This document shows positions 16,694 to 45,929 of a stretch of DNA of 64,000 nucleotides, piece after piece. The DNA comes from a virus, in IMG/VR virus record IMGVR_UViG_3300035703_000005, positions 62,001 to 126,000 of that record, one strand, 5' to 3'. A program made the translations under genes and the position numbers. Position 1 is the stretch's first letter. Every line of letters starts with the position of its first letter. Below the pieces are notes generated by a model. The model searched no databases. It saw nothing but the letters and a program-made list of their open reading frames with translations, and was not told where the DNA came from.

Positions 16694-16862
16694 TTGTTTT
16701 AAAAGGGTAAGTATAAGTCCAGGGGGTTCTGGATGTTACAGTATTCCCCACAACACCCTCCATTGTGGGTATGAGAGACGTAATTTATACACCCTAGAGG
16801 TCTCGGTTTACGGGGTGTTACAAAGATTAAGAATTATGAGGAATCCTTAACATTTGTTTACC

Positions 16863-34564: not shown

Positions 34565-34684
34565 TTGGTAACTCAGGCTCGCCACTTGTTTTGAGTACGA
34601 GAAAACAAGAAACTCGGCGGGGTTTCCCCATCCACACCAGTCGGCATATTTAATGTCCAATCCGACGAGGACAAAATGGGTCAT
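34550..34684 (-). CDS. possible 44-aa peptide or structured RNA
   Basis: An ATG frame reads MTHFVLVGLDIKYADWCGWG onward and ends inside the terminator stem. The DNA also folds locally (GGGGAAACCCC and a TTGTTTTC/GAAAACAA pair). No homologue recognised; it could equally be a leader or non-coding RNA. Confidence 0.3.
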   Translation of the reverse strand: MTHFVLVGLDIKYADWCGWGNPAEFLVFSYSKQVASLSYQRWVA

Positions 34685-41668: not shown

Positions 41669-41739
41669 GGGCAATATCGGATTCGAACCAATGACCAACT
41701 GCGTGTAAAGCAGCTGCGCTACCGCTGCGCTAATCGCCC
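41669..41739 (-). tRNA. tRNA-Val (UAC)
   Basis: Acceptor GGGCGAT/ATTGCCC, anticodon loop TTTACAC, T-loop TTCGAAT, A73. Confidence 0.95.
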
Positions 41740-41950
41740 GTGGGGGTGGTGAGATTCTGTCATACTCACAATCGGGAAGGTTACACTGACAACGTATTTC
41801 CCAACACTTAGGTTCTTCTTGGTGAGAAGTTCTATACCTTTGATTTCTCAACGATACAGCGGGCACCACCCCTAACCTATTACATTATCCCGTGAGTAAC
41901 CACAAGGATTGTTCTGTCACACCCAGAGAACTCCCGTCGAAGTTCTCAAG
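41740..41950 (-). other. spacer within RNA island
   Basis: About 210 nt without a firm gene. A frame reading leftward from GTG near 41865 (CWEIRCQCNLPDCEYDRISP) looks protein-like but runs into tRNA-Val, so it may be a decayed gene. A hairpin GAGAACT...AGTTCTC lies at about 41918-41950, just upstream of tRNA-Gly. Confidence 0.35.
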
Positions 41951-42540: not shown

Positions 42541-42776
42541 AGGCCGCTTTTCACGGCACCGTAACACTTTCTTTACAGGGCTGTTATCACCCCGTCTCTC
42601 TATACTAGGGCAGTAGTCTTACTGCGAGAGAATGCAACAATGTTGTTTGCGTTTGTTTTTTGTCCCGTCAACAGATACAACCTTACCACCTCGTCGAAAC
42701 CTTGGCAACCCCTAGTTATGGAGTTGTGGGGAGTCGAACCCCAGTCCGAAGCAACAGACTTTGCATCCTCTTGAAC
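42541..42776 (-). ncRNA. ssrA: circularly permuted two-piece tmRNA
   Basis: Transcript order on the minus strand: acceptor piece (TTCGGACTGGGGTTCGACTC then CCCACAACTCCA, ending near 42719), a 6-nt linker (42713-42718), then the coding piece starting GGGGTTGCCAAGGTTTCGAC. GGGGTTG (42706-42712) pairs with CAACTCC (42720-42726) to rebuild the acceptor stem; TTGTATC (42674-42680) pairs with GATGCAA (42761-42767) as P2 between pieces. The tag frame 42600-42650 reads ANNIVAFSRSKTTALV-stop, homologous to the cyanobacterial ANNIV-tag. A CTCTC/GAGAG stem and GGGGTGATAACAGCCC follow. tmRNA rescues stalled ribosomes and tags the nascent protein for proteolysis. Confidence 0.9.
42600..42650 (-). CDS. ssrA: tmRNA proteolysis tag, ANNIVAFSRSKTTALV
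   Basis: Resume codon GCA at 42648-42650, stop TAG at 42600-42602. The first five residues ANNIV match cyanobacterial tags (ANNIVPFARK...VAA), but the tag ends Ala-Leu-Val instead of the usual Ala-Ala that ClpXP recognises. Confidence 0.88.
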   Translation of the reverse strand, partial: ANNIVAFSRSKTTALV

Positions 42777-42783
42777 ATAGTAT

Positions 42784-42812
42784 ATAGTATACTAAAATTA
42801 TTCAGTTGTCAA
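42784..42812 (-). promoter_or_regulatory. promoter of the tmRNA
   Basis: TTGACA (42807-42812), 17-bp spacer, TACTAT (42784-42789). It starts between tRNA-Ser(GGA) and the acceptor piece, giving tmRNA an independent transcript start. Confidence 0.75.
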
Positions 42813-43086: not shown

Positions 43087-43090
43087 ATGG

Positions 43091-43164
43091 TATCCGTGAG
43101 AGGATTTGAACCTCCAACAAATAGATCCTTAGTCTATTGCCTCTTCCAATTGGGCTACACGGAC
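43091..43164 (-). tRNA. class I tRNA with anticodon AAG (Leu by code)
   Basis: Acceptor GTCCGTG/CACGGAT, anticodon arm ATAGA-CTAAGGA-TCTAT, 5-nt variable loop TTGTT, T-loop TTCAAAT. The anticodon AAG would read CUU (Leu), yet the short variable loop is not Leu-like; identity doubtful. Confidence 0.8.
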
Positions 43165-44068: not shown

Positions 44069-44101
44069 ATTTGAACTATCTGGAATTTCCAGATAATTGA
44101 G

Positions 44102-44172
44102 AGCCCAATAACAGAATTGAACTGTTCTCTGCAGTTTACTAAACTGCTGCATCACCACAATGCTTATCGGGC
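44102..44172 (-). tRNA. tRNA-Thr (AGU)
   Basis: Acceptor GCCCGAT/ATTGGGC, anticodon arm GCAGT-TTAGTAA-ACTGC, U73; A at position 8. AGU anticodons are rare in bacteria. Confidence 0.87.
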
Positions 44173-44247: not shown

Positions 44248-44319
44248 AGGCAGTGGGTAGAATTGAACTACCGACATAGAGGGTATGAATCTCTTGTTCT
44301 ACCACTGAACTACACTGCC
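44248..44319 (-). tRNA. tRNA with CAU anticodon (Met or Ile2)
   Basis: Acceptor GGCAGTG/CACTGCC, anticodon loop TTCATAC, U73. A31-C39 mismatch opens the anticodon stem. Third CAU tRNA of the window; one may be Ile2 (lysidine-modified). Confidence 0.88.
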
Positions 44320-44323
44320 AAGT

Positions 44324-44413
44324 AGGGAGAGGGTGGAATCGAACCACCATTGCCAATGGACGGAATCGAACCGTCTCTGATACCGTCGTATCCACCATCC
44401 AAGGTGCTCTCCC
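44324..44413 (-). ncRNA. aberrant tRNA-like structure with two T-arms
   Basis: A 7-bp acceptor GGGAGAG/CTCTCCC encloses a row of hairpins: CACC-TTGGAT-GGTG, GATAC-GACG-GTATC, GACGG-TTCGATT-CCGTC, CATTG-G-CAATG and GTGG-TTCGATT-CCAC. Two TTCGATT T-loops are present and no canonical 7-nt anticodon loop. Possibly a decayed or recombined tRNA, or a tRNA mimic. Confidence 0.6.
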
Positions 44414-44426
44414 ATATCGTAGGTGT

Positions 44427-44509
44427 ATCATTTGAGAGGATTCGAACCTCCATTGCCGCCTCCAAAACGCAAGTGCTATGGCGGAGTGTTACCGTTACAC
44501 TACAAATGA
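44427..44509 (-). tRNA. tRNA-like gene with expanded anticodon loop
   Basis: Perfect acceptor TCATTTG/CAAATGA, U8 A9, D arm GTGT-AACGGTA-ACAC, T arm GGAGG-TTCGAAT-CCTCT. The anticodon stem CCGCC/GGCGG encloses 19 nt (ATAGCACTTGCGTTTTGGA) instead of 7, so the anticodon cannot be assigned. Confidence 0.7.
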
Positions 44510-45443: not shown

Positions 45444-45534
45444 TGAGAGAGGAGGGAATTGAACCCCCGATGGTTCTTATGTACGTGTTTTACAGACACG
45501 GACTACACATATTGCCGACAGTAGCCACTCTCCC
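45444..45534 (-). tRNA. tRNA-Tyr (GUA)
   Basis: Class II; acceptor GGGAGAG paired with CTCTCTC, anticodon arm CGTGT-CTGTAAA-ACACG, A73. Its first base is the last base of the upstream gene's TAG stop. Confidence 0.95.
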
Positions 45535-45929
45535 TAGATTTTATACTGCAAATAATTTTCACCAAGATTGATTGAGTTTTTATTATCTTTTATGATGTCT
45601 TTGGGAATAAGATACTTATCACCATCAGCAGTTAGTATGAATAACTGGTCATAAAAGATTTCAGTATTGAGTTTATTGACAAAATTAGATTTACTATTTC
45701 CACCAGTAATCCTCAATCCCACTACATATTTTCCACTAGAAGATTTGGAGTTAGTTGTCTTTACTTGTATTTTTTGTAATCCAAGTTCAGGAAACTCAAC
45801 AATCAAATCGTAATCTTGACTATCTGTTAATGGGATAGAAACAGTATATCCAAGACCACAAAAGTGGGCAATACAAATACCCAATCCAACATCACCTTGT
45901 TTCTTGGTGTTTTTGCAGTTATGGAACAT
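45534..45929 (-). CDS. PD-(D/E)XK-type homing endonuclease-like protein
   Basis: 131 aa. KKQGDVGLGICIAHFCGLGY, SQDYDLIVEFPELG then LQKIQVKTTNS give the ordered E/D...D...QxK pattern of restriction-fold homing nucleases such as I-SspI. KYLIPKD and the acidic/hydrophobic C-terminus agree. It is free-standing between tRNA-Lys and tRNA-Tyr, targets probably a tRNA gene, and its stop codon is fused to tRNA-Tyr. Confidence 0.8.
   Translation of the reverse strand: MFHNCKNTKKQGDVGLGICIAHFCGLGYTVSIPLTDSQDYDLIVEFPELGLQKIQVKTTNSKSSSGKYVVGLRITGGNSKSNFVNKLNTEIFYDQLFILTADGDKYLIPKDIIKDNKNSINLGENYLQYKI

Follow-up and report, generated by a model that had tools for sequence, protein, structure and literature searches.

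The tRNA genes of phages are usually read as suppliers of codons. In canonical tRNA (RF00005), a 7-bp acceptor leads straight onto a 5-bp T-arm, the D-type loop carries GG and the anticodon arm has a 7-nt loop. The G19-C56 pair belongs to the tRNA elbow, which ribosomal sites, RNase P and T-boxes recognise (PMC4810234). Other described RNAs share some of these features. The tRNA-like domain of tmRNA, including the permuted form (RF04321, cyano and alpha tmRNA), lacks an anticodon arm, and the tRNA cluster of phage T4, a distant relative, contains two stable RNAs that are not tRNAs (species 1 and 2, rnaC and rnaD).

The element described here lies on the minus strand at 44324-44413 of the window, a 64,000-nt stretch of a 248,835-base virus record with cyanophage relatives. 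A preliminary description of this DNA had placed a 90-nt tRNA-like structure there (discriminator-position base included), in line with tRNAs, and this proved correct; its reading of the strand is amended, the RNA running on the minus strand as its tRNA neighbours do. Like canonical tRNA, the element has its acceptor set directly on a T-arm, GG in a D-type loop, a pairing of predicted G19-C56 type and a position in a tRNA array. Unlike it, the element has two T-arms, a GG linker, a hairpin loop of only 4 nt and no anticodon loop. From 5′ to 3′ it comprises the acceptor strand GGGAGAG (44407-44413, pairing with 44325-44331); the D1 hairpin CACC-TTGGAT-GGTG (44393-44406), in whose UUGG loop G 44399 corresponds to G19; the H2 hairpin GATAC-GACG-GTATC (44379-44392), with a GACG tetraloop in the place of the anticodon arm; AGA; T-arm 1 (T1, GACGG-TTCGATT-CCGTC, 44359-44375), where C 44368 corresponds to C56; the linker CATTGGCAAT (D2, 44349-44358), whose GG is common to all members examined; T-arm 2 (T2, GGTGG-TTCGATT-CCACC, 44332-44348), which abuts the acceptor without a spacer; the acceptor strand CTCTCCC (44325-44331); and a T at the 3′ end. 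The perfect 7-bp acceptor, the two T-arms with TTCGATT loops and the lack of a 7-nt anticodon loop, all reported previously, were found again. The minimum free energy fold of the minus strand contains the same helices (-37.8 kcal/mol, z -2.6). ARAGORN labels the element tRNA-Leu(CAG), a miscall; RF00005, which matches the neighbouring tRNAs, does not match it at cut-off.

The element stands in a minus-strand tRNA array running from ∼46.5 kb down to ∼40.7 kb. It is flanked by an odd tRNA at 44427-44509 and tRNA-Met at 44248-44319; CCA is not encoded in the window copy, nor is there space for an encoded CCA in its close-packed neighbours. The odd tRNA falls outside the element's family (Rfam tRNA model, 49.2 bits) and has a normal acceptor, D-arm and T-arm, with an anticodon loop of 19 nt and no readable anticodon (ARAGORN ‘gc’); it is near-identical in the L001 contig, where the copy has one more G. 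A likely tRNA-Tyr missed by ARAGORN is located at ∼45445-45536 (GGGAGAG..CTGTAAA..TTCAATT..CTCTCTC), with an unusually long D-arm region and a 5′ acceptor strand identical to that of the element. ARAGORN also reported two tRNAs with A34 anticodons, Leu(AAG) at 43088-43164 and Thr(AGT) at 44101-44172; relatives of the latter have GGT instead. The array further includes a permuted cyanobacterial-type tmRNA at 42543-42798 (RF01851, 105.8 bits; RF04321, 78.3 bits), separate from the element, its RF04321 match covering 42617-42768. Three other Rfam motifs occur on the minus strand of the same record: manA (41739-41946), wcaG (34571-34674) and PhotoRC-II (16733-16830).

When viral contigs were scanned with exact and degenerate patterns and isolates were searched by BLAST, the element turned up in many contigs of cyanophages. 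Synechococcus phage S-CREM1 has a copy with 87.8% identity (OP535465.1, 44482-44571) and phage B23 a diverged one, with no annotated feature under either match. Across 20 distinct cyanophage copies, standard pairs occupy 99.2% of paired positions, and changes on both sides are seen in 10 of the 26 pairs and in each of the five helices. The 34 double-change cells compare with 9.6 ± 2.2 in shuffles, none of 500 shuffles being as high, and RNAalifold returned the same structure from this set without structure input. Double changes affect three of the seven acceptor pairs and three of the five H2 pairs in cyanophages, and all seven and all five in the broad family, where all four D1 pairs also covary. 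T1, T2 and the 3′ acceptor strand show covariation in both sets. This comparison across related phages, suggested as a check in the preliminary description, yielded compensatory changes in all helices; the relatives are neither normal tRNAs nor decayed sequence, and the finding survives. As evidence against chance, the comparative support is far stronger than folding energy. We hold it as nearly certain that the element represents a conserved structured RNA family, and its predicted fold is well supported.

A wide pattern specifying only two close T-arms returned many other phage loci. The test set consisted of 79 non-cyanophage elements picked solely by the T1..GGNNA..T2 sequence pattern. Of these, 16 had the complete arrangement (an acceptor paired 7/7, a hairpin with a TGG loop and a second hairpin adjoining T1), against 0 of 1,580 shuffled-upstream trials and 0.25% when acceptor strands were swapped between elements; taken by itself, a 7/7 acceptor was present in 39%, against 3.7%. 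R1, a covariance model built on the cyanophage set, picked up distant members. In alignment A2 (30 diverse R1 matches, four of them cyanophage copies), 23 of 26 pairs had double changes, and double-change cells numbered 283, the shuffles giving 78; these counts lean towards the R1 structure because A2, like A3, was fitted to the model and carries that structure. Despite this fit, the effect size is far beyond the controls, and the signal was gone when partners were slid. A second alignment gave 320 double-change cells against 98 in shuffles.

The broad covariance model R2, with the line for membership drawn above 40 bits, recognised at least ∼75 distinct phage loci, ordinary tRNAs reaching ∼37 at most; E-values for R1 and R2 are rough. 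The window copy, with acceptor, D1, H2, T1, GG linker and T2 in that order, belongs to the double-T-arm family at 97.7 bits, a score obtained as a training member. Among the best matches outside the training loci were L234, L238, L224, L237 and L228, all fetched by T-loop pattern, the elements of L238 and L237 being identical to those of training loci L172 and L197. Minimum free energy folds of unrelated members gave the same cloverleaf. The T-loops were fixed in the search patterns, so the sequence conservation of T1 and T2 is partly by construction. When three distant representatives were compared with isolate phages by BLAST, one matched S-CREM1 only and two matched nothing. Two loci retrieved with the T1-variant pattern (L251, L240) are not family members, and short T-arm matches in Mycobacterium, Microbacterium and Enterococcus phages are ordinary tRNAs or other tRNA-like pieces. 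The scans also brought up two diverged double-T-arm RNAs in tandem with no tRNAs nearby (L006, 569-657 and 691-779, minus strand), and a locus with D1, H2 and T1 in which T2 and the 3′ acceptor strand are missing, either a decayed member or another RNA (L131, 11318-11381). Genes of ∼60 nt with a tRNA-like acceptor and T-arm were seen in a Microbacterium phage (L222, 766-826) and in a Mycobacterium phage (L223, 758-825), the latter encoding CCA and annotated as tRNA-Undet.

Phage B23 carries TGA for TGG in its D1 loop together with TTT for TTC in its T1 loop, and this joint change prompted a search for T1 loops in which another base replaces the C. Genuine variants were L278 (D1 TGA, T1 TTT) and L265/L255 (D1 TGT, T1 TTA), the D1/T1 variants having come from these searches or from BLAST. 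The aligned D1 G and T1 C columns read GC in 24 cases, AU in two, UA in one and another combination in one (L080, where the loop is shifted by one); with L080 left out, each position is the other's highest mutual-information partner. Once four automatic misassignments had been read by eye, every member with C in T1 had GG in the D1 loop. T2 retains TTC in the three D1/T1 variants, which indicates T1, rather than T2, as the partner of D1; a D1:T2 pairing was rejected, since the T2 C stays while D1 and T1 change together. Judging from this covariation, the D1 loop G and T1 loop C are predicted to form a Watson-Crick tertiary contact equivalent to G19-C56 of the tRNA elbow. The D-loop/T-loop pair of canonical tRNA thus has its counterpart in D1 and T1, and not in T2, whereas the canonical anticodon arm has none: the H2 loop is 4 nt long and its stem covaries.

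The linker carries GG in 75 of 75 cases, the search pattern itself having required GG, and a scan for T2 loop variants with a changed linker GG found no family member among the matches listed. Since the T2 loop and the linker GG are invariant in the family, a second elbow-type contact between the two is plausible rather than proved. The preliminary description had counted five hairpins inside the acceptor. Four stand, all of them covarying, and the fifth, CATT-GGC-AATG in the linker, is not conserved as a hairpin: shuffling did not make linker hairpins of at least 3 bp any rarer. Where the linker is longer, in the subset L098, L141, L142, L143, L160 and L226, a genuine hairpin does form, with the GG in its loop, and would resemble a second D-arm; such a hairpin is unsupported in most members, the window copy included.

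The pattern CTGG..T1..T2 was found in at least 31 viral-contig stretches, against two matches in 257 Gb of bacterial and archaeal genomes. One of these two (L225) consists of two tRNA pieces. The other (L224) is a genuine member (R2, 69.2 bits) adjoining genes for a DnaB-like helicase and a RecE-like exonuclease, and its contig is therefore phage-like; an R2 search of 148 other genomes from its phylum gave no match. The family is mostly phage-borne and almost absent from bacterial genomes. A tRNA lies within 500 nt in 40 of 78 copies; the closest one shares the strand of the element and is in many cases only 2-9 nt from it. Most of the remaining copies have no tRNA nearby. In L153 the element (1246-1332) sits within a permuted tmRNA match (1180-1448), exactly in the intervening segment of this phage tmRNA, with the CCA end on one side and the 5′ end of the tRNA-like domain on the other; in L230 it adjoins a permuted tmRNA. 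The discriminator position after the acceptor is variable, and CCA follows in at least eight members (L047, L078, L171, L206, L219, L226, L227 and L229). Stand-alone copies are flanked by differing genes (terminase, ssDNA-binding protein, DNA polymerase, RusA, ribonucleotide reductase), and cis-regulation of one particular gene was rejected on this ground. As neighbouring genes are not common to the copies, the role would be one in trans, and the varied context favours a trans-acting RNA from tRNA-type processing over a cis-regulator.

The preliminary description had offered two readings, a recombinant relic of two tRNAs or a stable tRNA mimic that might tie up ribosomes or processing enzymes. 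A functionless relic would fit the location in a tRNA array, the fusion-like duplication of T1 and T2, and the sequence GGCAATGG plus T-arm, whose likeness between the element and its neighbour at 44427 had been reported and was seen again. This reading is already contradicted by covariation, however: compensatory changes keep every helix, the D1 and T1 loops change in coordination, and unrelated phages carry the same architecture, about half of the copies lying away from tRNAs. We regard a relic as exceedingly improbable. An aberrant decoding tRNA-Ser(NGA) would have T1 as its anticodon arm (TTCGATT, anticodon CGA), T2 as its T-arm and H2 as an extra arm. ARAGORN does call several members tRNA-Ser(CGA), and in the T1 variants TTT and TTA the anticodons would be UGA and AGA, likewise those of Ser. 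However, position 37 would mostly be U, the stem ends in two GG/CC pairs of the T-arm type, and the long variable arm of bacterial tRNA-Ser is absent from the element. The supposed anticodon moreover covaries with the D1 loop, which fits an elbow and not decoding, and makes a decoding tRNA-Ser very unlikely.

Two further explanations keep a modest share of probability, each being unlikely to about the same degree. The element might be a signal that spaces or flags cleavage sites in tRNA or tmRNA precursors, the excised RNA having no role, as the many members 2-9 nt from tRNAs and the one in a tmRNA intervening segment would suggest; yet some half of the copies have no tRNA near them, and an internal elbow with two T-arms exceeds the needs of a spacer. 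Some tRNA-dependent ligases use aminoacylated RNA as an amino-acid donor outside decoding, and the element might be such an acceptor RNA, or else a ribosome-rescue partner of the tmRNA/SmpB type. The tRNA-like acceptor/T helix, the CCA encoded in several members and the copies inside and beside permuted tmRNAs are compatible with this, but the discriminator position varies, the acceptor pairs vary freely with no conserved identity pair, and no neighbouring gene is conserved.

The other reading of the preliminary description, a stable tRNA mimic, agrees with our results in its form, given an acceptor and T-arm of tRNA type, a D1:T1 contact like that of the elbow, and locations in tRNA arrays and a tmRNA segment. 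In the computed structure, acceptor and T2 make up a tRNA-like outer helix of 12 bp, with D1, a stubby arm and T1 inside. Regarding function, which we infer, a non-decoding mimic that is processed like a tRNA and acts in trans as a decoy or competitor is the explanation we put forward, giving the mechanism as a whole slightly less than an even chance. RNase P and 3′ processing would excise the RNA from transcripts of tRNA type; it would then probably receive CCA, and may be modified in its T-arms. Being unable to decode, it is proposed to work in trans: with the putative second elbow formed, it could offer its acceptor and elbow surfaces to tRNA-recognising machinery and so compete during infection. 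The ribosome, RNase P, T-arm enzymes and tRNA-directed host defence factors are guesses at its targets. More tentatively still, the family may be a widespread class of phage RNA with two elbow modules (D1:T1 and GG:T2), evolved to capture host factors that recognise tRNA through elbow and acceptor, e.g., ribosomes, RNase P or tRNA-directed defence nucleases.

In Rfam 15, no family matched the element at cut-off under gathering and E-value thresholds. The best hits fell short: the tRNA-Sec model (RF01852) gave 21.4 bits against a cut-off of 47, and YrlA (RF02553) gave 22.7 bits against 69 in a match spanning T2 and the next tRNA; SpF41 was likewise below its cut-off. YrlA, a Y RNA-like ncRNA of bacteria, also mimics tRNA and has T- and D-like arms, but the order of its arms differs. 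Unlike tmRNA, the element has no tag-coding part or tmRNA core; no tmRNA model matched the element itself, and the tmRNA match of L153 skips it as an insert. A literature search outside most subscription journals and preprints found no description of a double-T-arm RNA, which, with the absence from Rfam, suggests that the family is apparently undescribed. Annotation tools wrongly label these genes tRNA-Leu or tRNA-Ser. An RNA that is conserved, is carried mostly by phages and has tRNA recognition surfaces minus decoding would mean that phages also make tRNA mimics. With its covariance evidence and two isolates that carry it (S-CREM1 and B23), the family offers a handle on tRNA mimicry in infection. 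The yjdF riboswitch, T-box Stem I and plant-virus tRNA-like structures also mimic or recognise the tRNA shape or elbow; these are cis-regulatory or belong to RNA-virus genomes, and their arrangement is unrelated (PMC9142559, PMC4810234, PMC5723415). The T4 RNAs are comparable in being stable non-tRNA products of a tRNA cluster, and rnaC also ends in a T-arm. However, at 139 and 119 nt, rnaC and rnaD have other predicted folds, rnaC has a single T-arm, no model matches, and the R2 score at rnaC (23.1 bits) is at tRNA background level. They were therefore rejected as homologues, and can be seen as a functional parallel only.
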